From assembly GCA_022447625.1 (NCBI GenBank), contig JAKVAX010000020.1:1-58762 (forward strand): a stretch of 58,762 nucleotides of DNA, given 5' to 3'. The stretch comes from Flavobacteriales bacterium (GTDB lineage: Bacteria > Bacteroidota > Bacteroidia > Flavobacteriales_D > Sanyastnellaceae). The translations under genes and the position numbers were made by a program. This document shows positions 28,353 to 42,308 of the stretch, piece after piece (position 1 is the stretch's first letter; every line of letters starts with the position of its first letter). The notes beneath the pieces are model-generated. The model worked only from the letters and a program-made list of their open reading frames with translations. It ran no database searches and had not been told where the DNA came from.

Positions 28353-28372
28353 TTTGAATAGTGTACGTAAAG

Positions 28373-28405
28373 AAAAGCCCCGCAAATGCGGGGCTTTTTT
28401 TCTGC
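28373..28405. terminator. Bidirectional terminator
   Basis: A 12-bp inverted repeat, AAAAGCCCCGCA / TGCGGGGCTTTT, with T runs, between convergent genes (the PorE-like gene and the lipoprotein gene). The arms are almost the same as those of the terminator at 38687. Confidence 0.9.
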
Positions 28406-28430
28406 AGGTCAAAAATGAGATCTACAGCTT

Positions 28431-29540
28431 TCAATAAGCAAACGCAATCGCTGCGTTTTGAAGTTCGAGAAGTACCTCCTCTCCAAGCGGTCCTCCCGAT
28501 TCTTCTTTGAGCAAGATGGAAGTCGAAAAATCGACTTGTAGCGTGGCTTGCCCTTGCTCATTTGCTTCATATGGTGTAACAGTATGAATTGAAAAGAATG
28601 ATTCATCGGGTTGCCCTCCAAGAGGGTCACACTCCAGAATCGAAGAATAGCGGTTTCCTCCTTCATCCGTGAAGAATACTTGAATCACTGGTTCGTGATC
28701 GCGTTCAACTTCACTTTCTACCCATGGTAGTTGACAATCATCTAAAGGTAGCTCGATAAATTGGTCAATGAAGGGAACAAACTCAGTTCCATTATCTGTA
28801 ATGGCCAATGAAACAGAGATCTCCAACCCAAATCCAAACGGATCAAATGGAATCACCAAAGGATCTGTTCCAATGGTCTGGTAGAATGACTCATTCACCT
28901 CCCAAAGCAAAATCATATCCGGGTCAGTGACAGGAGGAAATAGAATAAACTCTTCGGCTTCGTAATCGATGTGCGCGTTGATGATTCCGATCATTATATC
29001 TCCAGAGCAAGGCGCTACAGGAAATACCGTGCATTCAGTGCTTCCTCCACAGAAGAGATCATTAAAATATCCGATTTGCACAGGCTGATTTGGATCAATA
29101 GCAACAGAAGGATCTTCTCCATCTATGATAGGTGTTCCGTTGACGATCCAAAAGACCTCTTCCTCTTCAGAACTTAAATGAAGTACACTACTCAAGCCTT
29201 CTTCAAAACCGAGCGCAACATCTGTCTCTTCAAGATCTTCGATGTGTTCAGCTGTGTCATTTATTTCTTCATCTCCAGCAATGAAACGGAAACTCAATTC
29301 CATGCCATCTGCATCGGGCACCGTGATGGTTGTGATGGATTCGAATCTACCAAAGTCGTTGCCCCATGATTCAGTAAACATGTACAATCCGTTGGTACCT
29401 GGAGTCATGTCAAAGGCTTCTCCGTTCAAGGTGCCTTCAACATCGAAATCTGGAGTGCGGTGCACTTCGCTTTCCGGCTCTTCTTTTCGACAAGCGGAAA
29501 GGGCCACCAAGCACAGAGCTATGATCAATATCTTTCTCAT
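28431..29540 (-). CDS. Lipoprotein of unknown function, downstream of an ECF sigma module
   Basis: A 369-residue predicted lipoprotein starting MRKILIIALCLVALSAC, with lipobox LSAC and early charged residues (RKEEPES). The ATG at 29540 overlaps the stop of the upstream beta-barrel gene by 4 nt, which favours it over an in-frame start 12 nt earlier. The mature protein is very acidic, with several cysteines (CGGSTEC, PC, DDC, LEC) that may pair, and looks beta-rich. No family recognised. It is the last gene of the sigma / barrel / lipoprotein operon, so its expression probably depends on that sigma factor (inference). Confidence 0.75.
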   Translation of the reverse strand: MRKILIIALCLVALSACRKEEPESEVHRTPDFDVEGTLNGEAFDMTPGTNGLYMFTESWGNDFGRFESITTITVPDADGMELSFRFIAGDEEINDTAEHIEDLEETDVALGFEEGLSSVLHLSSEEEEVFWIVNGTPIIDGEDPSVAIDPNQPVQIGYFNDLFCGGSTECTVFPVAPCSGDIMIGIINAHIDYEAEEFILFPPVTDPDMILLWEVNESFYQTIGTDPLVIPFDPFGFGLEISVSLAITDNGTEFVPFIDQFIELPLDDCQLPWVESEVERDHEPVIQVFFTDEGGNRYSSILECDPLGGQPDESFFSIHTVTPYEANEQGQATLQVDFSTSILLKEESGGPLGEEVLLELQNAAIAFAY

Positions 29541-30778
29541 TTCAGTCTCCAATTTAGTCTGACAATGAAACGCTTATTTCGGGCATCGCTTCCTTGAACC
29601 ACTGAGTTCAAACCGGTGCTGTAAGTGAAGTCAAGTGATGCAGATCGGGTCAATCGGTAACGGTATCCTCCATGTAAGTTCCACATGAGTGGGGAGAATC
29701 CGGTGAGGTAACCATAATCTTCAGACTCAGCCACTACCTCTTCACTGAACAAGCTCACCTCAGTGGTTGTCAGCTCGTTCTTCGTGACTGCTACATATTC
29801 TAGTCCTGCTCCTCCGAAGAATGAGTGGCGAACGTTCGCATCCCATATCAAAGAAACTGGCAGTTCCGCTAGGTAGAGCTTCACCGTTGAGATCTCAGTA
29901 TTTGAGTACTCGTACCCAAAGCCAGGCGTCACTTCACGGAAATCTTTACTCACGCGTACTTCCGTCAGCTGCTGACCTCCAAGTCCTCCTCGAATCCACA
30001 GTCCGTTGGCGATGCGTTGTTCAAGTGCAATCCCTGCTTGAGGGTTGAATACAGTAGCTCCTTTGACCGTTCCATAGCCCGCCGCAAAGGCGTTTCCAAC
30101 GTACACCATCAGTTGAGTAGGTTTCACTGACTCACGGAGGAAGTTGCGATGCTTATCTTCAAAAGTGCGGAACTTAAGTACACCCGACGGATCAACATGG
30201 CGGTACCCGCGAATGGAAGCGAGCGACAAACCGGTTGGTGCATTGATCGTAGGGGTAGTTTTGGTAGTACGTTCGAGCATTGATCCACCATAGCCCTCAG
30301 ATTCTACTACAGTTTCTAATTCCAATTCTTCCTTTAATTCGAATTCTTCCTTCACCTCATCTCCCGTTCTGAGATCAGCCACCACCTCTTGTTCAGGAGT
30401 GTCCGATTCCGCGCTAGCGAAAACAATAGAAGAAGAGGAAGAATGAGAATGAGAATTCGATGTTAAATTTTGGGGTTGAGTTGTATTTCCCACTTCATTC
30501 TCATTGTAGAAAGTCTCTTGGGGAGCGGTATCCGTTGACATCACTTCATGGGACGACTCATATTGAATTGGGTCGCGAGAAGTGTTATCCGCAAGCTGCG
30601 CCGGGCCATGTTCTGCCGGCAGGAAGTACATCACCACTGCGGCTACCACAACCGCAGCAGGTGGCAACCACGACAATACCTTGCGCGTGAACTGCTTGCG
30701 CTCTTCGCGCTTCAGTACGGCGAGGGCATCATCCCAGTACTCTTCCTTAAAAGCTTCGTTATGCAGATGCTTTTCCAT
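29537..30778 (-). CDS. Transmembrane protein with beta-barrel-like C-terminus, candidate anti-sigma partner
   Basis: A 413-residue protein. Residues 1-36 are charged and cytoplasmic in character (KEEYWDDALAVLKREERKQFTRK); a single hydrophobic segment follows (about 37-55, WLPPAAVVVAAVVMYFL); then a polar, Ser/Glu-rich linker (about 60-200). The last 200 residues have alternating strands and end NKRFIVRLNWRLK, resembling small Bacteroidota outer-membrane barrels. It has no cleavable signal peptide. The start overlaps the ECF sigma gene by 20 nt, which suggests an anti-sigma role for the N-terminal part. How one chain would span the inner membrane and also form a barrel is unclear. A 17-bp interspersed repeat encodes FASAES in the linker. 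Confidence 0.75.
   Translation of the reverse strand: MEKHLHNEAFKEEYWDDALAVLKREERKQFTRKVLSWLPPAAVVVAAVVMYFLPAEHGPAQLADNTSRDPIQYESSHEVMSTDTAPQETFYNENEVGNTTQPQNLTSNSHSHSSSSSIVFASAESDTPEQEVVADLRTGDEVKEEFELKEELELETVVESEGYGGSMLERTTKTTPTINAPTGLSLASIRGYRHVDPSGVLKFRTFEDKHRNFLRESVKPTQLMVYVGNAFAAGYGTVKGATVFNPQAGIALEQRIANGLWIRGGLGGQQLTEVRVSKDFREVTPGFGYEYSNTEISTVKLYLAELPVSLIWDANVRHSFFGGAGLEYVAVTKNELTTTEVSLFSEEVVAESEDYGYLTGFSPLMWNLHGGYRYRLTRSASLDFTYSTGLNSVVQGSDARNKRFIVRLNWRLK
30406..30422 (+). repeat. 17-bp interspersed repeat, copy 2 (GCTA loop)
   Basis: ATTCCGCGCTAGCGAAA, identical to the copies at 10114 and 37535, inside the barrel-protein gene, where the minus strand is read as FASAE. Confidence 0.8.
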
Positions 30779-31337
30779 TCTTTGTCAAATGCTCTAGTTC
30801 AGGTTGGAGGAATTCTTTCAACGCTTTTCTGGCCACACTGTAGTGCCAAGCGGAAGTACCCTCCGAAATCTTTAATAGTTCTGCGATTTCACGATGCTTA
30901 TAACCATCAATCGCATATAAGTTAAACACGCTACGGGTCATGGGATGCAGCTCAGTGAGCTTGTCTTGGATCACCTCCAGTAGGTTGCTTCCAATTCGGA
31001 GGTGTTCTGAATTTTCCATTCTGTATTCCTCCACGATATCCGTCCCGATCGCGATATTCTCTTTGTATCGTTTTTGTTTACGGAACTCGTCAATAATGCA
31101 ATTGACAGTGATGCTCCGGATCCATGTTTTTAGGGCTTGTTCTTTGTTGTACTTATCTAAGTTCAACATAATCCTGGCGAATGAGAGATTCAACATCTCC
31201 ATAGCTTCTTCTCTGGAAGACGCGTAGCGTAGACATATCGAGAACAGGTAGGCAAAGTGATGTTTGTAAAAAACATACTGAGCCTTACGGTCTCTTTTCA
31301 GACACCCCCGGAGTATCTTGTCTTCCTTGTAGTTCAC
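30759..31337 (-). CDS. ECF-type RNA polymerase sigma-70 factor
   Basis: A 192-residue sigma factor when started from the GTG at 31337 (VNYKEDKILRGCLKRDRKAQ), which matches the usual Bacteroidota start 'DxxIIxGCLKGDRKAQ'. A longer frame to a TTG at 31382 is rejected because it runs through the terminator hairpin of the upstream gene. Region 2: AYLFSICLRYASSREEAMEMLNLSF and TWIRSITVNCIIDEFRKQKR. Region 4: LHPMTRSVFNLYAIDGYKHREIAELL followed by a recognition helix. The 3' end overlaps the transmembrane/barrel gene by 20 nt. It probably directs core RNA polymerase to envelope-related promoters; the targets are not known. Confidence 0.88.
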   Translation of the reverse strand: MNYKEDKILRGCLKRDRKAQYVFYKHHFAYLFSICLRYASSREEAMEMLNLSFARIMLNLDKYNKEQALKTWIRSITVNCIIDEFRKQKRYKENIAIGTDIVEEYRMENSEHLRIGSNLLEVIQDKLTELHPMTRSVFNLYAIDGYKHREIAELLKISEGTSAWHYSVARKALKEFLQPELEHLTKNGKASA

Positions 31338-31349
31338 CAGGTTAAAGGG

Positions 31350-31377
31350 AAAAGGACCCACTCCGAAAAGTGGATCC
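31350..31377 (-). terminator. Terminator between Kazal-repeat gene and ECF sigma gene
   Basis: On the minus strand GGATCCACT-TTTCGG-AGTGGGTCC (one G-U pair) followed by TTTT. It starts 16 nt after the Kazal-repeat stop and ends 12 nt before the sigma GTG. It may fully or partly insulate the two genes. Confidence 0.7.
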
Positions 31378-31393
31378 TTCAACTATACAATCT

Positions 31394-33409
31394 TTAGTGT
31401 GTTTTCACTAATCGCTCTGTCGCAGAAGCGCCTGTGCTATCTGTCAGTTTCACGATGTAGCTACCTACTGGTAAGTCTGTGATCGATAGTTCGATCTGGA
31501 TCTGACCAGCTCCCATCTGATGGTTCGCACTATGTACGAGTTGTCCCATTGACGAGTAGATCTCTACTTGTACCGAACGTTCGTCGGTAACTTCTAGCTG
31601 GAGCGTTGTGCGGTGTTGCGTGGGGTTCGGGAACAGCAACATTGATTCCAGGTCATTGCGTGCTGAAAAGAATACAGCTTCTTCGGCTTGAATTCCAACG
31701 AGTGGGATATTCACACCACCACCATTGACACCGTCGCCATCTTCTTCACCTTCGTCTTCGTAGTCACAATCAACTACGTCCAAGCCTTCACATTCTGCCA
31801 AGCAAGCAGGCAGTTCGAAGATTCCGAATCCTGTGTCTACACATACTAGATCGAATGCTCCTTCGTAGTCACAATCGCAATCGAAATCATCGTTTCCACC
31901 ATCATCGTTTCCGTCGCCGTCTTCGAAATCACAGTCTACTACTTCTAGTCCTTCGCATGCTGCCAAACAAGCTGGCATGACGATAACCTCAAATCCTGTG
32001 TCTACACATACTAGATCGAATGCTCCTTCGTAGTCACAATCGCAATCGAAATCGCCATTGTCCCAGTCGTCACCCCAATCATCTCCCCAATCATCACCCC
32101 ATGGGCAATCACCTTCGTCGTAGTCACCATCGTTGAAGTCACAGTCGCCTTCAACAACCTCGAATCCGAAGCATTCAGCTAGACATGCACTTGGGAATGG
32201 TTCAATTCCGAATGGAGTCTCTACACATACAATGTCTTCCTCCGTTGGTTCAGGACAATCACACTCTTCATCAAATGGGTCTTCGTAGCCATCGCCGTCA
32301 TCGAAATCACAGTCAACGGTCTCCAATCCTTCGCATTCTGCGAGGCACAATGGCATTTCAATTACAATACCGAATCCAGGGTCTACACATACGAGTTCAA
32401 AGGCACCTTCATAATCACAATCACAGTCGTAATCGTAATCATCATTACCCCAATCATCATCCCAGTCGTCACCGCCGTCGTAGATATCACAATCTCCTTC
32501 TACTACTGTCAGACCTAGACATTCAGCAAAACAAGCGCTTGGGAATAACTCAATTCCAAATCCTGTTTCAACACAAACGAAGTCATCTTCGGTGGGCTCC
32601 GGACAATCACAATCAACATCCCATGGATCTTCGTCATCGTAATCATCATCGTTACCATCTCCGTAATCGCAATCAACGATTTCTAGTCCGTCGCATTCAG
32701 CGAAGCACAATGGAATTTCAATGATTCCGAATCCCGTTTCAACGCATACTAGATCGAAAGCTCCTTCGAAATCACAATCACAATCGTAACCGTAATCATC
32801 ATCGTCACCCCAATCGTAATCATCGTCACCACCGTCGAAGATGTTACAATCGCCTTCTACTACTTCTAATCCAAAACACTCTGCGATACATGCACTCGGG
32901 AATAGCTCAATCCCAAATTCTGTTTCAACACAAACGAAATCATCATCGGTGGGCTCGGGACAATCACAATCAACATCCCATGGATCTTCATAGTCATAGT
33001 CATAGTCATCGCCATAATCGAAATCACAGTCTCCTTCTACTACAGTCAAACCTAGACACTCTGCAAAACAAGCGCTTGGAAATGGTTCGATTCCAAAGTC
33101 TGTTTCTACACATACTAGGTCATCTTCAGTTGGTTCCGGACAGTCACAATCGAAATCGATTGGGTTATTTCCTCCTCCATTGAAGTCACAATCACATTCA
33201 ACTATTTCCAGTTCAAGGCATTCAGCAATACATGCGCTTGGCATCGGGAAGATGTCTCCCTCCACTTCCACACACACGATGTCTTCCGGAGTCGGTTCCG
33301 GACAGTCGCAGTAGATCCCGAATGGGTCGTCTCCTTGGGCAGATGCAGCCAGCCCCAGTAGGCCGAAAAAAGCTGCGATCATTACTCTCTGTAAAGTTTT
33401 CATACGCAT
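31394..33409 (-). CDS. Secreted protein with nine Kazal-like repeats and T9SS type A tail
   Basis: A 671-residue protein (a second in-frame ATG at 33403 is equally possible) with a signal peptide ending near AASAQ. It carries nine Cys-rich units of about 40 residues with the pattern C-x-C-...-VC-x(12-13)-C-x(2)-AEC-x(8-10)-C, close to Kazal-type inhibitor domains ('SACFAECLGLTVVEGDC'). Two subtypes occur: A begins CDCPEPT and B begins CDC(D)YEGAF; the order is A-A-A-B-A-B-A-B-B. Linkers are very rich in D, G, Y and W. The end (LLFPNPTQHRTT...LPVGSYIVKL) is a T9SS type A sorting domain, so it should be released or displayed outside the cell. It may inhibit serine proteases or bind calcium; neither is shown. 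It is divergent from the CHAT protease gene. Confidence 0.85.
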   Translation of the reverse strand: MRMKTLQRVMIAAFFGLLGLAASAQGDDPFGIYCDCPEPTPEDIVCVEVEGDIFPMPSACIAECLELEIVECDCDFNGGGNNPIDFDCDCPEPTEDDLVCVETDFGIEPFPSACFAECLGLTVVEGDCDFDYGDDYDYDYEDPWDVDCDCPEPTDDDFVCVETEFGIELFPSACIAECFGLEVVEGDCNIFDGGDDDYDWGDDDDYGYDCDCDFEGAFDLVCVETGFGIIEIPLCFAECDGLEIVDCDYGDGNDDDYDDEDPWDVDCDCPEPTEDDFVCVETGFGIELFPSACFAECLGLTVVEGDCDIYDGGDDWDDDWGNDDYDYDCDCDYEGAFELVCVDPGFGIVIEMPLCLAECEGLETVDCDFDDGDGYEDPFDEECDCPEPTEEDIVCVETPFGIEPFPSACLAECFGFEVVEGDCDFNDGDYDEGDCPWGDDWGDDWGDDWDNGDFDCDCDYEGAFDLVCVDTGFEVIVMPACLAACEGLEVVDCDFEDGDGNDDGGNDDFDCDCDYEGAFDLVCVDTGFGIFELPACLAECEGLDVVDCDYEDEGEEDGDGVNGGGVNIPLVGIQAEEAVFFSARNDLESMLLFPNPTQHRTTLQLEVTDERSVQVEIYSSMGQLVHSANHQMGAGQIQIELSITDLPVGSYIVKLTDSTGASATERLVKTH

Positions 33410-33506
33410 TGGTTTTTGGATTAAATTTCCTTCACTAGACAGTACGTCCCTCCTTGGATTTTCCTTGGCAGGATTTTGAAATTAAACTCCAACCAACTGA
33501 ATTCCT

Positions 33507-36218
33507 GTGATTTACAGGTTATCTTTTTTCATCATCGCATTGATCCTCTCAGGGTTTTCGTCGTTTGCTCAAGCAGATAAAGACGAACAACGACTGCGTG
33601 ATTTGATGCACGATGGACAAATGGAAGTAGCGGCGGAAGCAGCCGACTCTTTGTTAGCACGGATGCCGGCTTGGCCTCCAGAAAGATACTTGCGCAATGT
33701 GGGGGCGATTGGTTCCGTTGCTGTTCGCGTTGGTGATAACGAAAGAGCAGATTCGCTCTTTGCTCAAACATTTTCTCGTCTAGCCACCGATTTCCCAGAA
33801 GCCCAATGGAATGACAAAAGCACCTTTATAGATTCTTATGCCGAGTTCCTTTGGTTCACAGGCAGTCCGGTAGATGCCCGAAACATGATGCGGAATGTCG
33901 CTCCTTATTTAGTCAACGACACGATTGGTTCTGACCAAGCCAAATTCCACAACAACATGGGCATCGTTGAATGGAATCTAGGAAATGCGTCAGAAGCGCT
34001 CTATCATCTGAAAGCCGCACTGGAACTCAATGGTAAAATCCACGGTGAGGATAGTCGTAGATACGGGCGAAACTTGAATAACATCGGAGTACTTTATTTA
34101 GAACAAGGTGATCTTCCGCTATCGCGAGAATTCTTTGAACGTTCCATCACCATTGCAGCTAGCAAATCTGAAAACGACACCCCTGACATGATCTACCCAT
34201 GTAACAACTTGGGAACGATCTGTGCAGAGATGGGCGACGCTGAAAGCTCCGCTAGATGGTTTGACCGTAGTCAGTCCATTCTAGAAACGAGTCGTCAACC
34301 CGAGCTACGCTACATCGAACTTCAACTGCTCCGTGGCCAGGCTTACTTGGATTTGGGGGACACGGCGAAAGCGGCCATAACTTTTCGAGAGGTGCTGGAA
34401 GGTGACATGTCTCAAGTGAATCCAGTTCGTCAGCTCGAGACGCAATGGTCGGCTTATCTCTTTGATCCACCTTCGGTAAATGGGTTCGAGATCTTGAAGA
34501 CAATAGATGGCTCCTTCATTGCATTCGACAGTACTTATGCGAATCACCCAGCACGTCTTCCATTAGCCAATGAAAAGATTAGACTTGCATTGAATGAAGG
34601 CTCTGAATTAGCTGAGCAGCTGATCACACAGACGCTGCATCGCTATGAACTTGATGGGAAGCTTATGCCTGAAGTTGATCTTTCTGAAACACTTCTGTTG
34701 GCATCTCAGCTTGAATCGAAGCTAGAAGATCGGGTTCCGCATTACCAACGCGCAATTGATTTGCTGCTTGATTGCAGAAGTGCACTCATCTTTGAAGAAG
34801 CGAGTTCTACATTCTATGAAGATGTGCGTGACTCCTACCACTACATGATTAATGATGTTTACGTTGAGCTCAATGGCGACATTAGTGAGGAGTATCAGCC
34901 CATGATTTTTGAGTGGATTGAAGAATGTAAATCATTCACGCATCAATGGTTCTTAGCAAGCTATAGTGATGAAGATGAGCAGATTCGCGATGATCTTTCA
35001 AAGATCTTTTATCTCAGATCGCAGATTGAGAATTCGGGTGACGGCACCGGCGAAATGCGCGCTGAATTGATCCAGCGAATTCAAGCATTACCTGAAGACC
35101 GAAGAAGTCAATCGCAATCGCTCTCGAAATTGCAGTCTAGTCTGAATGGCCAACAACGATACATCAGCTTTCTGTTGATTAATGACGTTTTGTGGAAAAT
35201 GGATGTGACCGCAAACGCCTTTGAGCTGCAACGGATTACTGCCATTGATCTTGAGGATCAAGTAATGGCAGCATACACCTCTGTCAGTGATCGTGCCTAT
35301 GCAATCGGTTCAACACAGCTTCGCGAAGCATGGAAAACGCATTATTCAAACCTGGGAAAACTGCTAGACCTAGAGAACTTGAATGATCGAGTCTATATCA
35401 ACGCTGACGGGCCGCTTCATCAGATCAATTTATCGCTTTGTCAGCTTGCCACCGAAGGCAAACTCAGCGAGATCATTCGCGTTCAAAGTGCCGGTCACTT
35501 CGAAGCAATAACAGATCAAGAGTTGAAGGTTGAAGCCATGACCAAGCAATTTTATACTTCAAAATTAAGTTCACTAATTGGCGTAGAGAAAGAGTTGCAA
35601 TTGCTTCAAGATTTAGGGTTAATCAAGCACTCATTTCAAGACAGCTTATGTTCCATGGCCTCACTCAAAAAAGTGGCCTATTCTCATCGGGCTCTTCATT
35701 TGGCGATGCATACCCAGTCAGAGCGTCTATCCCGAGGCTTGGTACTTACCGGAAATGATGGAAACGACACCATCGTAACCCCGCAAGGGTTGTATGAGTT
35801 GGCGTTTACCACACCGCATGTCACATTGAGTGCGTGTGAAACGGCCTTCGGCGAGATTCTTCCTGGTGAGAGTGTACAAGATTTGAGTACGCCTTTCTTA
35901 CGCCGTGGAGCGCAGACGGTGTTGGCTGGTCTTTGGAAGGCTGATGATTTCGCTAGCGCGGAATTTATGGCTTCCTATTATCAACATCTTGCCGAAGGTG
36001 CTACTGCTTCCAATGCCCTGATCGCCGCATCAAATCTTATGCGAAACGGAGAAGATCCCTTGCGAGCTCACCCTTATTTCTGGGCCAATTGGCAGGTGTA
36101 CGGAGGTAACATTCAATTTGCTCAACCGAAGACAGAAATGGAGTATGTACTTTCGATTGCGGTACTTATCGCACTAGTCTTTTTCGGCGCATGGATCATA
36201 CGAAAGCGCTTTGTATAA
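33507..36218 (+). CDS. Membrane-anchored TPR-CHAT caspase-like protease
   Basis: A 903-residue protein from a GTG start that begins a good signal peptide (MIYRLSFFIIALILSGFSSFAQA). Residues about 25-310 hold TPR-like helical repeats (for example FHNNMGIVEWNLGNASEALYHLKAALELN). The CHAT domain fills about 610-870, with the catalytic pair His735 (LHLAMHT) and Cys777 (LSACET), both intact, and the usual ending GAQTVLAGLWKADD. A C-terminal transmembrane helix follows (about 877-898) with the basic tail RKRFV. With a cleaved signal peptide this gives a type I topology: TPR and protease in the periplasm and the tail in the cytosol. The 3' end overlaps the opposite-strand anti-sigma gene by 45 nt. 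Regulation of that sigma system is a reasonable hypothesis. Confidence 0.9.
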   Translation: MIYRLSFFIIALILSGFSSFAQADKDEQRLRDLMHDGQMEVAAEAADSLLARMPAWPPERYLRNVGAIGSVAVRVGDNERADSLFAQTFSRLATDFPEAQWNDKSTFIDSYAEFLWFTGSPVDARNMMRNVAPYLVNDTIGSDQAKFHNNMGIVEWNLGNASEALYHLKAALELNGKIHGEDSRRYGRNLNNIGVLYLEQGDLPLSREFFERSITIAASKSENDTPDMIYPCNNLGTICAEMGDAESSARWFDRSQSILETSRQPELRYIELQLLRGQAYLDLGDTAKAAITFREVLEGDMSQVNPVRQLETQWSAYLFDPPSVNGFEILKTIDGSFIAFDSTYANHPARLPLANEKIRLALNEGSELAEQLITQTLHRYELDGKLMPEVDLSETLLLASQLESKLEDRVPHYQRAIDLLLDCRSALIFEEASSTFYEDVRDSYHYMINDVYVELNGDISEEYQPMIFEWIEECKSFTHQWFLASYSDEDEQIRDDLSKIFYLRSQIENSGDGTGEMRAELIQRIQALPEDRRSQSQSLSKLQSSLNGQQRYISFLLINDVLWKMDVTANAFELQRITAIDLEDQVMAAYTSVSDRAYAIGSTQLREAWKTHYSNLGKLLDLENLNDRVYINADGPLHQINLSLCQLATEGKLSEIIRVQSAGHFEAITDQELKVEAMTKQFYTSKLSSLIGVEKELQLLQDLGLIKHSFQDSLCSMASLKKVAYSHRALHLAMHTQSERLSRGLVLTGNDGNDTIVTPQGLYELAFTTPHVTLSACETAFGEILPGESVQDLSTPFLRRGAQTVLAGLWKADDFASAEFMASYYQHLAEGATASNALIAASNLMRNGEDPLRAHPYFWANWQVYGGNIQFAQPKTEMEYVLSIAVLIALVFFGAWIIRKRFV
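35948..35964 (-). repeat. 17-bp interspersed repeat, copy 3 (reverse orientation)
   Basis: TTTCGCTAGCGCGGAAT, the reverse complement of the copies at 10114, 30406 and 37535, inside the CHAT domain region, read as FASAEF just after the LWKADD motif. Confidence 0.8.
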
Positions 36219-36899
36219 CGCCCTTGCCTCGTCGGCCTTGTACCCTTGTGTTCTAGCCAAAAAAGCTAAGTAGTTTTGTGCATAAACACAAGAATCAATT
36301 TCAATCGCGCAGATTGCCCCATACCAGTACGACGCTCGCTTGTAGGCGTGATCTTCGTAGGCCAAATCACCAAACTCATCAAAGGCCTCGGAGTATTGAT
36401 TATTGTACATCGCGCTCAGGGCAGAATAGAATCGATCTTCAGGATTCTCCGATGTTGAGCTTTGGAAGAGCGTTCTTGCCAGCTCGTAGTTTCCTTGTGC
36501 GTATGCTTCATGCGCCTTTGCATCTTCTTCACCACGCACAACAGCCGCCGGATACCTCTCAGTTACCGCTTCAGCCATCATATCATCGAAGTTCGGTTGA
36601 AGTGCAAAGAATAGAAAACCTGCTACTAAGAGCACCGCGATTGCCGCCGCAGCCCATATCCATGAAAGTGAAGACTTCTTCATTTCTTCAGAAACCTCGG
36701 TTGAGGGCTGGATCATTTCTATCAACTCATGTGGCTCCATGCCTGAAGCAACCATTTCTTTGATGGTATGTAGATGAGCTTGTGCCTCTTCATCTGTAGT
36801 CAAAATCTCGTTCACTCTCTTCGTTCCTTCCACAGTAGTCAGTCCTAAGGTGTAGTCGATTAAGAGCTCAATGGTGTATCTGTTCTTATCTCCAGTCAT
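36174..36899 (-). CDS. Single-pass anti-sigma-like protein with periplasmic TPR domain
   Basis: A 241-residue protein. Residues 1-78 are soluble and helical and probably face the cytoplasm to bind sigma; one transmembrane helix spans about 79-100 (WIWAAAAIAVLLVAGFLFFAL); the periplasmic C-terminus (about 120-235) has TPR-like helices (EAYAQGNYELARTLFQSS, AMYNNQYSEAFDEF). The start overlaps the ECF sigma gene by 14 nt, the classic sigma/anti-sigma order, though no zinc-finger anti-sigma motif (HxxxCxxC) is present. Its 3' end overlaps the CHAT protease gene tail-to-tail by 45 nt. The periplasmic TPR part is a plausible partner or substrate of the TPR-CHAT protease. Confidence 0.8.
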   Translation of the reverse strand: MTGDKNRYTIELLIDYTLGLTTVEGTKRVNEILTTDEEAQAHLHTIKEMVASGMEPHELIEMIQPSTEVSEEMKKSSLSWIWAAAAIAVLLVAGFLFFALQPNFDDMMAEAVTERYPAAVVRGEEDAKAHEAYAQGNYELARTLFQSSTSENPEDRFYSALSAMYNNQYSEAFDEFGDLAYEDHAYKRASYWYGAICAIEIDSCVYAQNYLAFLARTQGYKADEARALYKALSYDPCAEKD

Positions 36900-37413
36900 G
36901 TAACTTCTTCATCAAGGTTTTACGGATCAGTGACTTTCTGTTTGCCACGGTTTTCGGAATCATTGTACAGGCTTTAGCAATCTCAACATTGTCGAAGCCT
37001 TGCATGTGCAGGTTCCAAATCTTTTGATCCAGTGCATTCAAGCTCGCGTTGATCGTTTCCTCCAACTGGCTTAGCCTTACTTTTTCATCGGCAATGGCTG
37101 CACGTTCTGATTTCTCAGGCATCTCTTTTGCTACGATTTCTCGTCTTCGTTTATCCAGACGAATCTTCGTTAATGCAGCATTCTTGCATGCAGTGATGGC
37201 CCATGTTCTCACATTCTTCACCCCATCAGCTGGAGTAAGCGCTACCACCTTTATCATGGTTTCTGAGGCAGTATCTTGAGCATCTTCTTTCTGCTTAAGA
37301 ATGCTGTAAGCTGAAATGATCAAAGGCGGATATAATACTCGGAACAATTCATTATCTGCCGAAGAATCGCCTTCCATCTTCCGTTGCCATATGTGCTCGA
37401 TCGGAGTTGCCAT
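36886..37413 (-). CDS. ECF-type RNA polymerase sigma-70 factor
   Basis: A 175-residue sigma factor (MATPIEHIWQRKMEG). Region 2 covers NELFRVLYPPLIISAYSILKQKEDAQDTASETMIKV and NVRTWAITACKNAALTKIRLDKRRR; region 4 covers LNALDQKIWNLHMQGFDNVEIAKAC followed by TVANRKSLIRKTLMKKL. The charged segment between them is typical of the ECF group. It overlaps the anti-sigma-like gene by 14 nt, indicating co-expression. No -7 box was seen close to its start. Confidence 0.88.
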   Translation of the reverse strand: MATPIEHIWQRKMEGDSSADNELFRVLYPPLIISAYSILKQKEDAQDTASETMIKVVALTPADGVKNVRTWAITACKNAALTKIRLDKRRREIVAKEMPEKSERAAIADEKVRLSQLEETINASLNALDQKIWNLHMQGFDNVEIAKACTMIPKTVANRKSLIRKTLMKKLHDWR

Positions 37414-37534
37414 GCCACCTTCCCGACCGCTTTCATGAGTCTAGACGACCGGAACTGATTTGATTCCCGAATCTACTCAAATTCATTTGTTAAAATAAGG
37501 AACACCGACCTGTAAATAAGTACATCATTGCCTC

Positions 37535-37551
37535 ATTCCGCGCTAGCGAAA
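37535..37551 (+). repeat. 17-bp interspersed repeat, intergenic copy 4
   Basis: ATTCCGCGCTAGCGAAA followed by TAA, in the gap between the ECF sigma gene and a divergent lipoprotein gene. The intergenic location shows that the sequence is not kept for its coding content alone. Confidence 0.8.
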
Positions 37552-37611
37552 TAAACAGCAAATTGCACTTTGGCATGTGCCTTGTGTATAGAGAACAAGT
37601 CACAAAACCCA

Positions 37612-38295
37612 ATGACCATGAATTGGAAAACACTCACACTACTCGCTTTTCTTGGCATGAGCTTAGCTAGCTGCATGCGCGAGGACTCAGAAAATGTAAA
37701 TCAAGATCGCATCTGGGCTCGCTACGAACTGTTTTACGATGCAGATGAAGACATTACCTACGCCCGAGCAACTTTCCGCTTCGGACATTCCGCAGGAACT
37801 AAACTCGAATTGACCGAGCCATCTGAAGTACGCTTCAACGGCGATCCGATTCCCTTCCGTGAAGGATTGGCTTATTATGAAGAAGATTACGCTGGGTTTG
37901 TTAGCTCAGGAACCTTCGAGTTTGAAGATTTGAATGGCAACACCTACGTGAATGATGCGGAGATTCGTTCTATTGAATTCCCAAGTACATTCGGACCAAT
38001 TGATCAGAATGCTTCCTTCGAAATTGAATGGGAAGGAGACGCCCTAGGCACTGATGAAATTGTCAGCGTTTGGCTGAATGGAATCAATGAAGGCAACGCA
38101 CAGTTCTTCACAGAAAACAGCGACGGTGCAACGAACATTCTGCTTGGAATGAATCAGTTGCAGCAACTACCTGCTGGAACGACTACTGCCATCATTGAAC
38201 GCAGCTACACTCCTGACATTCAACAAGGAACTGACGTTGGAGGAGTCATACACGGACGCTACCGTGGATCTACTCGTTCAGTAGAAGTGGAATAA
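37612..38295 (+). CDS. Lipoprotein of unknown function
   Basis: A 227-residue lipoprotein (MTMNWKTLTLLAFLGMSLASC), with lipobox SLASC near residue 21. The ATG at 37612 (or 37618) is preferred over an upstream in-frame start at 37570 that would disrupt the signal peptide. The mature part is beta-rich and acidic with no further cysteines. No family recognised. It is divergent from the sigma/anti-sigma pair, so it could be a target of that sigma factor, but nothing in the sequence proves it. Confidence 0.75.
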   Translation: MTMNWKTLTLLAFLGMSLASCMREDSENVNQDRIWARYELFYDADEDITYARATFRFGHSAGTKLELTEPSEVRFNGDPIPFREGLAYYEEDYAGFVSSGTFEFEDLNGNTYVNDAEIRSIEFPSTFGPIDQNASFEIEWEGDALGTDEIVSVWLNGINEGNAQFFTENSDGATNILLGMNQLQQLPAGTTTAIIERSYTPDIQQGTDVGGVIHGRYRGSTRSVEVE

Positions 38296-38386
38296 ACAGC
38301 CTGTTAACAGATTGAAGTGAAGAAGTAAGAAAATCTCCGTTATTTCTTACCGAAAGTTTGGCGACCTTCAACCTAACATTACAATT

Positions 38387-38581
38387 ATGGCAAATATCAC
38401 TCAACTCACAGCTGAGCGCCAAAAGCTTATGCAAGACTTCTTGAAGGTTAAGCACGAGTTGGCGAAGATCAAAGAAGAGAACAAAGCACTGAAGGCTGAA
38501 AATGATTCACTTCATGTTCAATTAGAAGAACGCGAAATCGAGTATTCGAACCTATTCCACGCAATTCAAGAAATGGACTGA
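38387..38581 (+). CDS. Small coiled-coil protein
   Basis: A 64-residue cytoplasmic protein that is almost entirely a heptad-patterned helix (LAKIKEENKALKAENDSLHVQLEEREIEY). It starts ATG GCA AAT ATC and is followed by about 100 bp without a gene and then a strong terminator, so it is probably its own transcript. Such short coiled coils can act as cell-division or structural adaptors, but no named family is assigned. Confidence 0.65.
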   Translation: MANITQLTAERQKLMQDFLKVKHELAKIKEENKALKAENDSLHVQLEEREIEYSNLFHAIQEMD

Positions 38582-38686
38582 AACCTTTTTGCTTGTTACA
38601 AGTAATAAAGTTCAACATCCTTTCACATGTGTGGGAGATTTAGGGAACGAGATGGAGCGTGAAGAGATTGTATATAGTTAAAGGTT

Positions 38687-38717
38687 AAAGCCCCGCATAT
38701 GCGGGGCTTTTCTTTTG
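38687..38717. terminator. Bidirectional terminator
   Basis: A perfect 24-nt palindrome, AAAGCCCCGCAT/ATGCGGGGCTTT, followed by TTCTTTT, between the coiled-coil gene and fabD. The DNA at 38582-38686 contains no recognised gene; it is the 3' untranslated part of the coiled-coil transcript. Confidence 0.9.
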
Positions 38718-38736
38718 GCTTATGTTGGGAAAGTTA

Positions 38737-39630
38737 TCAGCTCGTTTCAAGCGCAACGCCACTCACTGGGAACTTGCGATCGATCTTCTTGAAGAGCCCT
38801 TGTAGCACCTTACCTGGTCCTACCTCAACGGCTTCACCTGCACCATCAGCGATCATCTGCTGCATTGTTTGCGTCCAACGAACTGGAGCAGTCAACTGCT
38901 TTACTAAGTTCGCTTGAATCTCTTCTGGTGAAGTCACTGCTGAAGCGGTTACATTCTGGTAAATCGGACAAACAGGAGAGGTAAAAGCTGTTGCTGAAAT
39001 CGCACCTTCAAGTTCTTCACGCGCTGGTTCCATCAGCGGTGAGTGGAATGCTCCCCCTACAGGAAGAAGCAACGCACGACGTGCCCCTTTCTCGGTGAAA
39101 ACTTCACAAGCTTTCTGAACGGCTTCGTTTGATCCAGAGATCACTAGCTGTCCTGGACAGTTGTAGTTTGCAGCGACAACAACACCATCAATTTCAGCAC
39201 AAGTAGATTCAACCACATCGTCTTCTAGGCCAAGGATTGCGGCCATGGTAGATGGATTGATTTCACACGCTCGTTGCATGGCTTGGGCACGAGCTGAAAC
39301 GAGTTTAAGTCCGTCTTCGAACTTCATCGCTCCTGCAGAAACAAGCGCAGAGAACTCACCAAGGCTGTGTCCGGCAACCATGTCAGGTTGGAATGCATCT
39401 CCCATTGACTCAGCGAGTATTACCGAGTGAAGGAAGATTGCTGGTTGGGTCACCTTCGTTTGTTTCAGCTCCTCTTCAGTTCCATCGAACATAATATCTG
39501 TGATACGGAAACCGAGAATATCATTGGCTTGCTCGAAACGGGCTTTTGCCGCTCCTAGCGTATCGTAAAGATCTTTGGCCATTCCAGGAAATTGAGTACC
39601 CTGTCCTGGGAATACAAATGCCTTTTTCAT
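38737..39630 (-). CDS. fabD: Malonyl-CoA:ACP transacylase
   Basis: A 297-residue enzyme with the family signature FVFPGQGTQFPGM at the start, the nucleophile motif GHSLGE (catalytic Ser in VAGHSLGEFSALV, about residue 90) and the catalytic His in GGAFHSPLM. It transfers malonyl from CoA to acyl carrier protein, the entry step for malonyl units in type II fatty-acid synthesis in the cytosol. It stands alone here, not beside other fab genes. A -7 type box lies 16 nt upstream. Confidence 0.95.
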   Translation of the reverse strand: MKKAFVFPGQGTQFPGMAKDLYDTLGAAKARFEQANDILGFRITDIMFDGTEEELKQTKVTQPAIFLHSVILAESMGDAFQPDMVAGHSLGEFSALVSAGAMKFEDGLKLVSARAQAMQRACEINPSTMAAILGLEDDVVESTCAEIDGVVVAANYNCPGQLVISGSNEAVQKACEVFTEKGARRALLLPVGGAFHSPLMEPAREELEGAISATAFTSPVCPIYQNVTASAVTSPEEIQANLVKQLTAPVRWTQTMQQMIADGAGEAVEVGPGKVLQGLFKKIDRKFPVSGVALETS

Positions 39631-39646
39631 AATCTGAAGATTTCGG

Positions 39647-39654
39647 CAAATATA
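39647..39654 (-). promoter_or_regulatory. -7 promoter box of fabD (TATATTTG)
   Basis: On the minus strand TATATTTG matches the TAnnTTTG consensus, 16 nt before the fabD ATG. This gives a very short 5' leader of about 10-12 nt. Confidence 0.55.
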
Positions 39655-39664
39655 GGCGAAGAGC

Positions 39665-40663
39665 TTAGTCGTTCAGAAAATGGTCAACAGCCTTCTTTCC
39701 ACTTTCGATTAACGACCTTCTTTCTTCCATTGATAATTCTCGAATGCGCGGACCAATCCCTTCGGTCGAAACACTGATAGTTCGACTCCAATCATCTTCT
39801 GACATGCTATTTCGACTTAATGTCTCTAGGGTCAAGACATACAAGGCTTCAGTGTAGCTCTGTAATGAATTGATATCGATATCTACCAACCCTTCACGTT
39901 GTTGATCAGCGTCAATTTGTTCAGGGGTATCCATGCGAACGCCGATAGTTCTTCCTGAGTGTTGCCCATCCGCTCTATCGAACATATGAATCGGATAGTT
40001 CGCGAGGAGTCCACCATCGATTAAGAGATGCTGCACAGAATTGCTGGATGGGTCTTCTACTACTTTTCCTTCTGCAGTAATAGGTACTGCTTCGAAATAG
40101 AATGGAATAGAAATCGCGATGCGCATCGCATCCGAGAGGCGCATTTCCGGATAGGTCTCTACTGATAAGTACACCAGTTCTTGACGGTTCACAGAGGTGG
40201 CTGTTACATAGAGATCGAGGAACCCCGCTATTCTAGCTTCTTCGAAAGTGGTTTCTGTACTTCCCGTTTTCGAAGCAATGACAGAGGCAATCCACTCATG
40301 AAACTGATCACCAGGGTACCAACCGTAGTGCTTATTCATGCGATACACCCCTGAAGCTAAAAAAGGAACCTGAGCATCGTTGAAACTCTCCCAGGGAGTA
40401 GATTCTACAATGCGAATAATCTCTTCAGGCTCATAGCGAAGGGAAATCAATAAAGCCGTGACCGCTCCAGCTGAAGTACCGCCAACACGCTGCAATGAAT
40501 CCAATTGACCTTGTTCTTTCAAGGCGTCTATCACCCCTCCATAGGCGAGTCCGCGAATTCCGGCACCCTCAAAAACCAGGTTCTCCGGATGTTGGGCATA
40601 GCCATTCCGCGCCAGCGAAATAATGAGAAAGACGAAGAGTGAAAGGTGAAGAAGGATGCGCAT
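39665..40663 (-). CDS. Secreted patatin-like phospholipase
   Basis: A 332-residue protein starting MRILLHLSLFVFLIISLARNGYAQ (signal peptide); the ATG at 40663 is preferred over an earlier frame start overlapping the neighbour. Patatin features: oxyanion-type loop FEGAGIRGLAYGG, nucleophile elbow GGTSAGAV (Ser about residue 69) and catalytic Asp in DGGLLANYP. It probably hydrolyses phospholipids or other acyl esters in the periplasm or outside the cell. The signal-peptide region contains a variant copy of the 17-bp repeat. It follows a T9SS-type secreted protein gene with a 28-nt gap. Confidence 0.88.
   Translation of the reverse strand: MRILLHLSLFVFLIISLARNGYAQHPENLVFEGAGIRGLAYGGVIDALKEQGQLDSLQRVGGTSAGAVTALLISLRYEPEEIIRIVESTPWESFNDAQVPFLASGVYRMNKHYGWYPGDQFHEWIASVIASKTGSTETTFEEARIAGFLDLYVTATSVNRQELVYLSVETYPEMRLSDAMRIAISIPFYFEAVPITAEGKVVEDPSSNSVQHLLIDGGLLANYPIHMFDRADGQHSGRTIGVRMDTPEQIDADQQREGLVDIDINSLQSYTEALYVLTLETLSRNSMSEDDWSRTISVSTEGIGPRIRELSMEERRSLIESGKKAVDHFLND
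40604..40620 (+). repeat. 17-bp interspersed repeat, variant copy 5 (GCCA loop)
   Basis: ATTCCGCGCCAGCGAAA followed by TAAT, one base different from the GCTA-loop copies. It lies in the signal-peptide coding region of the patatin gene and is read as SLARN. Confidence 0.75.
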
Positions 40664-40691
40664 AAGGTAGTTTTCAAAAAGGTAGTAACCT

Positions 40692-41696
40692 CTAGAAAAC
40701 GAACTTCTGGCGGAATATATTTCCGTCAGCATCCATCACATGAAGAATACCGCGGTGTATGTTGAGATCCATTTCAAACACCTCACCTTCATCCATCGTT
40801 CGTGTTTGTTGCTGGATCAATTGACCGCTGAACGAATAGACCGAAAACTGACAGGCTTGGATTGACTTCCCTTGGTAACGAATTTGAGCACGTTCATAAC
40901 CAAAAGACACATCGAAGATTTCGTAGTACGGCAAAGTCACTTCAATCACCGGCGAATAGGTGAACATACCGTTGAAGTCTTGCTGGCGAAGTCGAACGTA
41001 GTAACTACCCCCGGCATGGAGATCAAGCATCTGATGGTAGGTGTGTGAAACACTGGAATTTCCATTGCCTGGTACAAACTGAACCGGTTCAAAATCGGTA
41101 AATGTGCGTCCTATCTCTATGAAAAAGCCTTGATTATCTTGTTCTGAAGCCGTTTCCCAACTCAGCAAAAGATCGGTTCCATCTAAAAAGGCGTCGAAAC
41201 TGGTGTAGGTAACCGGAAGAAGAATACAGAATGGACAGGTTCCATCAACGTAATTTACGTCGTAGGTAATGATTTCATCAGCACGATTCGCCGAACCTTC
41301 TACAACAATATATCCGCCCGTCTGCGTATGTAAATCGTATAAGGTAGAATTGCTTGCACCTGTCATCCAAGGCGAAGAGCCTGAGCTGTTTCTTACCCTC
41401 AATTGATCTCCACTATCTGCGCCGCTGGCTGTACAACCTGGACGGTTAGACATACGTGCTTCCACTTGGATTTCGCAGGAAACATCTTGTGTATCAATCC
41501 AAACAGACATAGACTGTTGTCCTCCATTACAATTACCTGAAGTTCCGCCACCGCAATTTGGTCCGCCGTAAGCCAAGAGATTACAACCACCAAGACATCC
41601 ACAACCTGCCCCTGAAACACTAAGGGTTCCAGAAAGGCATTGAGCCTGAGCGAATAGAGGTAACATGAACAAAACGCTAAAAAGAGAGCGAAGCAT
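40692..41696 (-). CDS. Secreted Cys/Gly-rich protein with T9SS-like C-terminus
   Basis: A 334-residue protein starting MLRSLFSVLFMLPLFAQAQ (signal peptide). The ATG at 41696 is preferred to an upstream in-frame start at 41771. The N-terminal part is glycine- and cysteine-rich (GCGCLGGCNLL, GGPNCGGGTSGNCNGG). The middle reads LPVTYTSFDAFLDGTDLLLSWETASEQDNQGFFIEIG, a segment very common just before T9SS sorting domains. The C-terminus (about 260-334) resembles a degenerate type A sorting domain. The function is unknown; it is probably a surface or secreted protein. It is 28 nt upstream of the patatin gene and may be co-transcribed with it. Confidence 0.75.
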   Translation of the reverse strand: MLRSLFSVLFMLPLFAQAQCLSGTLSVSGAGCGCLGGCNLLAYGGPNCGGGTSGNCNGGQQSMSVWIDTQDVSCEIQVEARMSNRPGCTASGADSGDQLRVRNSSGSSPWMTGASNSTLYDLHTQTGGYIVVEGSANRADEIITYDVNYVDGTCPFCILLPVTYTSFDAFLDGTDLLLSWETASEQDNQGFFIEIGRTFTDFEPVQFVPGNGNSSVSHTYHQMLDLHAGGSYYVRLRQQDFNGMFTYSPVIEVTLPYYEIFDVSFGYERAQIRYQGKSIQACQFSVYSFSGQLIQQQTRTMDEGEVFEMDLNIHRGILHVMDADGNIFRQKFVF

Positions 41697-41780
41697 GTTT
41701 TTCGTTTTTGCGCCGCAAAGGTCTGATATCCTATCCATTTCCAGCGATAATCTTCCATTAATTTTATCCAATATCAGCCC

Positions 41781-42308
41781 ATGGCTACTATCGGATTAAT
41801 CAGCGTTGCTTGCGCCATCGCAACCGTACTTGGAATTGCCCTCTACATCTTTGGCTACGCCCGAAAAGCGAGAGTGATGAAAATTAGCGCCATCCTCACT
41901 TTTGTATTGGGGTTTGGAGGCTTGATTTACATCTTGGCAAAATATGGTGAGAAGCCTGAGCAAGCAGGCTCAGCTTCGGCTACCTACTGGAATGTGATCA
42001 AATGGACGCAAACCACTGATCTTGGGGGCGACAATATTCATATTGATGATCTGACCGTAAGCTGGGATGGAAACCTAAAAATTGTGGTTGACGGCGATCG
42101 AATTAAGTTCGGAGATGGAAAATCACAGTGGGTTCAACGCGAGTTTCAGGCCACTGATTCCACTTGGGAATTTGCGCTTGACTCTACCCCAGGTGGCCCT
42201 CCGCTTACGGGAACATTCAAGATTCTATTGCCAGGGGAGAACGAATTGCAGCTCTCTAAGACAGATGGTCGCATGACCGAATCGATTAACCTAGTCAAAG
42301 TCAACTAA
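41781..42308 (+). CDS. Two-helix membrane protein of unknown function
   Basis: A 175-residue protein with two N-terminal transmembrane segments (about 5-24 and 33-54) and a soluble beta-rich C-terminal domain (about 65-175). No family recognised. It is 6 nt upstream of the bestrophin-like gene, so the two are likely co-expressed and may be functionally linked. Confidence 0.7.
   Translation: MATIGLISVACAIATVLGIALYIFGYARKARVMKISAILTFVLGFGGLIYILAKYGEKPEQAGSASATYWNVIKWTQTTDLGGDNIHIDDLTVSWDGNLKIVVDGDRIKFGDGKSQWVQREFQATDSTWEFALDSTPGGPPLTGTFKILLPGENELQLSKTDGRMTESINLVKVN

Follow-up and report, generated by a model that had tools for sequence, protein, structure and literature searches.

A caspase-like TPR-CHAT protein as the predicted site-1 protease of a membrane anti-sigma factor in Bacteroidota

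A contig of a Flavobacteriales bacterium (JAKVAX010000020.1, assembly GCA_022447625.1), analysed here as one window of 58,762 nucleotides, codes for a tetratricopeptide repeat (TPR)-CHAT protease beside a membrane anti-sigma factor and an extracytoplasmic function (ECF) sigma factor. The locus raises the question of what a caspase-like protease does next to a sigma/anti-sigma pair. The answer proposed, with a probability of about 0.75, is that all three genes belong to one signalling module, in which the CHAT protein serves as site-1 protease of the anti-sigma factor; the cut itself is a prediction from sequence. Computed support comes from the association of the genes, the intact catalytic residues, the predicted topology, and covariation between a putative S1 residue of the protease and the putative P1 residue of the anti-sigma factor. 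The features concerned are the following.

33507-36218, plus strand: TPR-CHAT protease, open reading frame (ORF) of 903 amino acids with GTG start (Pfam, hydropathy, model)
35592-35594, plus strand: codon of Glu696 (E696), predicted S1-pocket acid of CHAT (covariation, model, clan CD position)
35709-35711, plus strand: codon of catalytic His735 of CHAT, following strand 729-733 (alignment, model)
35835-35837, plus strand: codon of catalytic Cys777 of CHAT, following strand 771-774 (alignment, model)
36144-36200, plus strand: C-terminal membrane anchor of CHAT, residues 880-898 (hydropathy 2.61)
36174-36899, minus strand: membrane anti-sigma factor, ORF of 241 amino acids (Pfam, hydropathy, AlphaFold, NCBIfam)
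36534-36536, minus strand: codon of Arg122, predicted P1 (YPAAVVR-G, cut after R), 23 residues past the transmembrane helix (motif, covariation)
36603-36659, minus strand: transmembrane helix of the anti-sigma factor, residues 81-99 (hydropathy)
36886-37413, minus strand: ECF sigma factor, ORF of 175 amino acids (Pfam, NCBIfam)

The CHAT protein has a signal peptide at about residues 1-22, a TPR-type helical region, a caspase-like fold at about 549-872, and a short basic tail. Its Pfam match to PF12770 is strong (3.6e-32, 112.4 bits against a curated cut-off of 24), and TPR_12 was matched at 1.5e-21. Hydropathy gives a signal-like N-terminal segment and a C-terminal transmembrane segment at 880-898. 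The AlphaFold model (mean predicted local distance difference test, pLDDT, 83.9; predicted template modelling score 0.80) shows an extended run of TPR-type helices together with a caspase-like sheet and a helix at the C-terminus. H735 and C777 are invariant in the alignment of all 57 linked CHATs, that is, those within 7 kb of a sigma/anti-sigma pair, and both residues are also present in 39/39 linked CHATs of a later set from a scan of named genomes. By Pfam match and catalytic His and Cys, the protein is a member of the CHAT peptidase family, with predicted proteolytic activity.

The CHAT and anti-sigma genes are convergent with 3' ends overlapping by 45 bp, and the anti-sigma and sigma genes overlap by 14 bp, according to the ORF calls. 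The sigma protein matched Sigma70_ECF (2.7e-7) and Sigma70_r2 (2.8e-7) of Pfam. The anti-sigma factor is composed of a cytosolic N-terminal domain, a single transmembrane helix at 81-99, and a periplasmic TPR-like domain from about residue 124, with the N-terminus predicted inside; its inhibition of sigma is putative. Matches of its N-terminal half to NCBIfam anti-sigma models are weak (8.2e-6 and 4.4e-4, both below cut-off), and Pfam gives no more than a marginal TPR hit (E 0.012 to TPR_16, below cut-off). Its AlphaFold model (pLDDT 86.3) has a helix at 79-99 over the transmembrane segment, a short helix at 104-113, coil at 114-123, and helix pairs from residue 124 onward.

Topology was also predicted across the family. 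In three sets pooled, a C-terminal transmembrane segment was predicted in 105/123 CHATs of at least 700 amino acids and a hydrophobic N-terminus in 101/123; in 99 of the 105 C-terminal tails, the Lys/Arg count is at least that of the ten residues preceding the transmembrane segment. Among 132 anti-sigmas examined in the pooled sets, 126 have a transmembrane call, and Lys/Arg is richer on the N side of it in 115 of these. Because of this charge distribution, together with the transmembrane and N-terminus predictions, CHAT and the TPR domain of the anti-sigma factor are predicted to lie on the same, periplasmic face. The initial annotation had read an intact His735/Cys777 TPR-CHAT with signal peptide and C-terminal anchor, convergent on a one-helix anti-sigma that overlaps an ECF sigma gene, and had assigned both the protease and the TPR domain of the anti-sigma to the periplasm by predicted topology; the first two points are confirmed, and the predicted topology is upheld across the family.

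The C-terminal anchor was also considered as a marker of sigma linkage. In the first set, a sigma gene is found within 7 kb of 18/23 anchored CHATs and of 0/13 unanchored ones (Fisher 3.7e-6). This use was dropped, as 35/41 unlinked CHATs of the named scan are anchored too, and therefore the anchor marks a subfamily and not sigma linkage. At one locus (L095, genome G054), the CHAT is split into adjacent ORFs of 382 amino acids (with the N-terminal hydrophobic segment) and 399 amino acids (with CHAT and transmembrane segment), and it lies away from the strongest anti-sigma of that genome (L148).

The CHAT/anti-sigma/sigma trio is a real and widespread module. A CHAT match was found in 27/150 related genomes; among the matches listed, only four genomes belong to the same family outside the genus of the window. 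Within this genus, one genome (G002) carries the same trio with identities of 94% (CHAT), 88% (anti-sigma), and 98% (sigma), and another (G001) a diverged trio of M type, with Met at P1 (L098). The CHAT-seeded set consists of 35 regions around matches plus the window, with 36 CHAT genes scored; L091, whose contig ends within CHAT, was left out of the scoring, and a pair adjoins its CHAT too. Gene order varies while adjacency is kept: sigma, anti-sigma, and CHAT on the same strand, convergent as in the window, CHAT-sigma-anti-sigma, or divergent.

The association was also approached from the side of the anti-sigma factor. An anti-sigma profile was searched against 395 class-level genomes; of the best 73 rows, 5 had been obtained before, 8 (mostly near-duplicates) were set aside manually, and the other 60, from 41 genomes, were fetched. 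A CHAT gene is inside the fetched stretch (up to about 15 kb) at 38/60 of these loci, with 1.9 expected from CHAT density; the neighbourhood survey in relatives proposed by the initial annotation thus found the trio conserved, in several gene orders. At genome level, CHAT is present in 53/56 genomes with a strong anti-sigma and in 89/339 others (Fisher 1.7e-23, relatedness ignored), where strong means a best E below 1e-27, a threshold chosen after inspection of the list to drop TPR-only matches. Because the profile was built from CHAT-linked anti-sigmas, both the adjacency and the co-occurrence counts are biased upward.

Between membrane and TPR domain, the anti-sigmas share a juxtamembrane periplasmic motif, roughly P-[GNA]-[hydrophobic]-x(2-4)-[M/R]-[S/G]. 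An automatic rule, [MR] before [SGAND] between the transmembrane helix and the TPR domain, finds it in 73/79 anti-sigmas, while shuffled segments give a mean of 29.7 and a maximum of 43 (500 shuffles). Windows 25, 50, and 75 residues further along the same anti-sigmas hold the motif in 12, 14, and 16 of 79. The first [MR][SGAND] stands at a median of 24 residues after the transmembrane helix (interquartile range 23-26.5). In the window, the predicted cut is between Arg122 and Gly123. One anti-sigma (L250, genome G222) is without the [MR][SG] motif, and no CHAT was found in that genome. Genomes with a strong anti-sigma and no CHAT are just three, too few for a test of any link with motif loss.

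The predicted P1 residue of the motif, Met or Arg, is tracked by one residue of the protease. Among 863 CHAT columns, column 696 separates M from R at P1 best (0.99 bit, the maximum for these labels), followed by a column with 0.81 bit; the best of 100 label shuffles, which ignore relatedness, reached 0.71 in the 53 discovery pairs. In the reverse scoring, P1 is the best anti-sigma column for Glu versus any other residue at 696 (0.95 bit). All 53 callable discovery pairs fit, with Glu in 30/30 R pairs and 0/23 M pairs, the latter having Thr, Leu, Ala, Phe, Tyr, or Asp in all 23. One M-type pair is L083, with a predicted cut after the final Met of PGLPVPM and Ala at 696. The discovery rows include close relatives, and the window and L096 count as two. 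Four uncallable discovery pairs fit the rule by eye: Lys-Glu (L076), Leu-Leu (L157), Leu-Asp (L193), and Arg-Glu (L197). Alignment A4 holds 76 of the 79 anti-sigmas, leaving out L189, L198, and L204; alignment A6 is without L096, L090, L165, and L091.

The rule was written down before a held-out set of 60 further anti-sigma loci, many from genomes already used, was fetched. CHAT is present at 36 of them, 34 have a readable residue, and 26 are callable by the rule. Agreement is 26/26, with 18 R-Glu and 8 M-other pairs (Fisher 6.4e-7), or 18 and 5 (p 3e-5) without three loci of an already-used genus; eight uncalled pairs judged by eye agree in six cases and disagree in two. The third set came from the named-genome scan, seeded with a six-row CHAT alignment, which gave 80 loci, 39 of them with an anti-sigma and 35 callable. 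All 35 fit (34 R-Glu and one M-Ala), and this set mainly confirms R-Glu because it was seeded with R-type CHATs. In a comparison with the CHATs of the earlier sets only, none of its 39 CHATs has a best match above 85% identity. Cultured carriers in this set include Zobellia russellii (L308) and Aquimarina muelleri (L291). Of its four uncalled pairs, L337 (Lys-Glu) fits, L290 (Leu-Glu) does not, and L294 and L298 are unreadable. Across the callable pairs of the three sets, Glu stands at 696 in 82/82 R pairs and 0/32 M pairs. In G054, the strongest anti-sigma (L148, cut site M-S) and the single CHAT (L095, Phe) match despite lying on different contigs.

In the CHAT model, helix alpha1 (691-702), with residue 696 near its beginning, stands between the first strands of the caspase-like fold and the strand preceding His735. 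In clan CD proteases, as described in passages of PMC4357240 and PMC4626109, the P1-binding residue follows strand beta1 and stands at the beginning of alpha1 or close to it, as in caspase-3 (Arg64), gingipain (Asp163), and MALT1 (Asp365), with Asp95 of TbMCA2 also on alpha1. This suggests E696 as the predicted S1-pocket acid and specificity residue of CHAT. It need not be the sole P1 determinant, because the P1 contact of separase is named as another residue, D2151, in a passage of PMC9729208.

The mechanism that would follow is site-1 cleavage at the inner membrane. The anti-sigma factor would hold the ECF sigma factor there. Upon a signal, the anchored TPR-CHAT on the periplasmic face would cut the anti-sigma between transmembrane helix and TPR domain, in the window after Arg122. 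An M50 (site-2) protease, together with cytosolic proteases, would then presumably remove the remaining stub, and sigma would be freed. The genome of the window has one CHAT, 26 Sigma70_r2 matches in 3.9 Mb, and one M50 protease (PF02163, 1.6e-52); the last is unspecific, since 14/14 control genomes have one. That CHAT may cut the anti-sigma as a first step had been suggested from the window, and the conserved neighbourhood, the predicted topology, and the P1/696 covariation now lend support to it.

Several observations weigh against this reading. No CHAT is in reach at 22/60 and 24/60 loci of the two anti-sigma-seeded sets, and the anti-sigmas at these loci keep the motif in 20/22 and 20/24 cases; the motif alone therefore does not prove the part of CHAT. 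Conversely, the named scan gave 41 CHATs out of 80 with no anti-sigma within 5 kb, and 35 of these 41 are anchored. The pairs that disagree by eye are L231 (P1 Lys, residue Met) and L260 (P1 Leu, residue Glu, with CHAT 3 kb off) of the held-out set and L290 (P1 Leu, residue Glu) of the named set. Asp, also an acid, occurs at 696 in three M/L pairs (L101, L187, and L193), where the alignment is poor at this position; L101 reads Phe in another alignment. Cut sites of Craspase vary among orthologs (PMC11106740), so that CHAT need not depend on P1; those of Csx29 in three orthologs are M-K, L-D, and A-S, cut between the two residues (same source). The tree adds to these points. Branches between the groups of pairs without Glu and with M/L are mostly weak, only one independent pair is found on starred branches, and the sign test is therefore without power. 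A likelihood test of correlated evolution favours dependence (likelihood ratio 31.7, 4 degrees of freedom, p 2e-6), conditional on a quick tree.

The alternative that survives best, although an unlikely one, is that a few deep lineage splits, passed on jointly to both proteins, account for the covariation, with no contact between the residues. The small number of clades holding the non-Glu/M-L pairs, with mostly weak branches between them, would suit it. On the quick tree of 91 pairs, each trait changes 8 times by parsimony, or 5 times after five long branches are dropped. However, these pairs form five starred groups (19, 3, 3, 3, and 2 rows) with differing residues at 696, columns 696 and P1 are reciprocal best, and 696 is on the helix from which other clan CD proteases bind P1, all of which argues against joint inheritance alone. 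The case for direct contact between residue 696 and P1, as far as sequences carry it, is strong but not closed.

A little less probable is a CHAT that binds and does not cut, its TPRs holding the TPR domain of the anti-sigma as a sensor or clamp. TPR-type repeats are present in both partners, the cleavage is so far inferred, and DdvA has a CHAT domain as part of the anti-sigma itself (PDB 8rot); yet a pure scaffold would not be expected to keep His and Cys strictly in 57/57 linked CHATs or to show the S1-P1 covariation. Equally improbable is that the anti-sigma is cut by another site-1 protease and that CHAT belongs to the sigma regulon as one of its outputs (a cell-death or envelope-stress effector, for instance), staying close by for the sake of co-regulation: sigma factors often control adjacent genes, and 46/120 anti-sigma loci are without CHAT in reach, 40 of these 46 with the motif, but such a role does not predict that CHAT 696 tracks P1 of the anti-sigma, nor the match of both across contigs in G054.

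For the preferred reading, cleavage of the anti-sigma by CHAT, the nearest working analogy is the Csx29-Csx30-CASP-sigma system of type III-E CRISPR, where a TPR-CHAT protein is likewise paired with a restrainer of sigma. Csx29 has Cas7-11 and target RNA as partners, and Csx30 is a soluble protein, whereas the CHAT described here is secreted and anchored, and its putative substrate is a membrane anti-sigma. According to passages of PMC10028731, the TPR-CHAT protease of that system cuts the inhibitor of an ECF-like sigma factor. Csx29 (8eey) is at the head of the fold matches of the CHAT model (Z 30.6, root mean square deviation (rmsd) 13.0, 536 residues aligned), tied with yeast separase. Separase structure 5fc2 has the caspase-like fold too (Z 27.4, rmsd 3.0, 302 aligned). 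The curated Csx29 model was not matched by CHAT (18.3 bits against a cut-off of 300), and the E696 region is a gap in one Csx29 in the profile alignment. No CRISPR-like array was found in 28000-42000; direct repeats there fall inside the coding region 31394-33409. Separase cleaves after Arg (passage of PMC4626109); it is eukaryotic, however, with cohesin as substrate.

The system nearest in placement is that of DdvA, a membrane anti-sigma that includes a CHAT domain. Because a full-length CHAT alignment against PDB brought up TPR proteins in the best 60 of 518 matches, the CHAT domain was searched alone, and DdvA (8rot, 8rw5) was the best sequence match of its profile (E 8.8e-14). DdvA also resembles the CHAT model in fold (Z 22.5, rmsd 6.6, 578 aligned) and keeps the aligned His and Cys. 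In DdvA, the CHAT domain is in the chain of the anti-sigma itself, whereas the window has separate ORFs. DdvA is a transmembrane anti-sigma of Myxococcus xanthus, and DdvS is active once DdvA is inactivated (passages of PMC4374960). The window trio belongs neither to the Csx29 family, as judged by the curated model, nor to DdvA-type fusions.

The order of steps proposed here, site-1 and then site-2, is that of RseA-DegS-RseP in the sigma-E system, where a periplasmic site-1 cut of a one-helix anti-sigma is followed by a site-2 protease; PMC10028731 also refers to this type of proteolysis. The site-1 enzyme here would be a caspase-like cysteine protease and not a PDZ serine protease. For group ECF54, CHAT proteins in the genetic context and proteolytic control have been proposed, in passages of PMC8999054 that describe the group without an anti-sigma. 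A CHAT gene near an ECF sigma gene is common to both, but an anti-sigma gene is present at the window locus. In the open-licence PMC literature (subscription papers and preprints lay outside the search), no report was recognised in which a CHAT protease, as a protein of its own in the periplasm, acts on a membrane anti-sigma. New here are the juxtamembrane [M/R]-[S/G] motif and the M/R covariation with CHAT residue 696.

On balance, a large family of dedicated pairs probably exists in Bacteroidota, each made up of a caspase-like site-1 protease and a membrane anti-sigma, with what look like dozens of pairs in some genomes and with pocket and cut residue co-evolving (Arg with Glu, Met/Leu with non-Glu); this broader view is held less firmly than the reading of the locus itself. 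Such pairs would be a clan CD route to periplasmic activation of ECF sigma factors and a plausible relative of Csx29-Csx30-sigma. If true, many TPR-CHAT proteins of Bacteroidota would gain a function, caspase-like cysteine proteases would join the enzymes that open ECF signalling, and the CRISPR circuit would stand among non-CRISPR protease/anti-sigma pairs. The predicted bond between Arg122 and Gly123 and the candidate specificity residue E696 make the reading testable.

In four genomes (G446, G466, G503, and G150), the pair appears to have expanded greatly: each genome holds 52-55 matches to the anti-sigma profile (E up to 0.001, with TPR-only matches counted) and 33-40 CHAT candidates from a first look. 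No other recurrent partner of unlinked CHATs was seen among the gene clusters listed. Seven of the 41 unlinked CHATs (L286, L292, L296, L309, L310, L315, and L339, five of the seven from Aquimarina) have no sigma or anti-sigma in reach and adjoin interrelated genes; the four such genes listed resemble further TPR/CHAT genes.

PADLOC gave no match for CHAT, and its weak matches of anti-sigma and sigma to CARF-type models (E 3.4e-4 to 7e-3) were taken as chance. A tRNA-Ser called by ARAGORN at 35221-35314 (plus strand), within the CHAT coding region, is probably spurious, because the 94% identical relative L096 is without it. Upstream of CHAT, the minus-strand gene at 31394-33409 codes for a repeat protein rich in Cys and Asp that has a sorting domain for type IX secretion (Por_Secre_tail, 3.4e-10). 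It is transcribed away from CHAT, with starts 97 bp apart, and is a candidate for shared regulation. At 29537-31382 (minus strand), a second ECF sigma gene overlaps another gene, whose product has a hydrophobic segment and weakly matches an outer-membrane barrel model (OMP_b-brl_2, 9.2e-4, below cut-off); this is possibly another pair of sigma/anti-sigma type.

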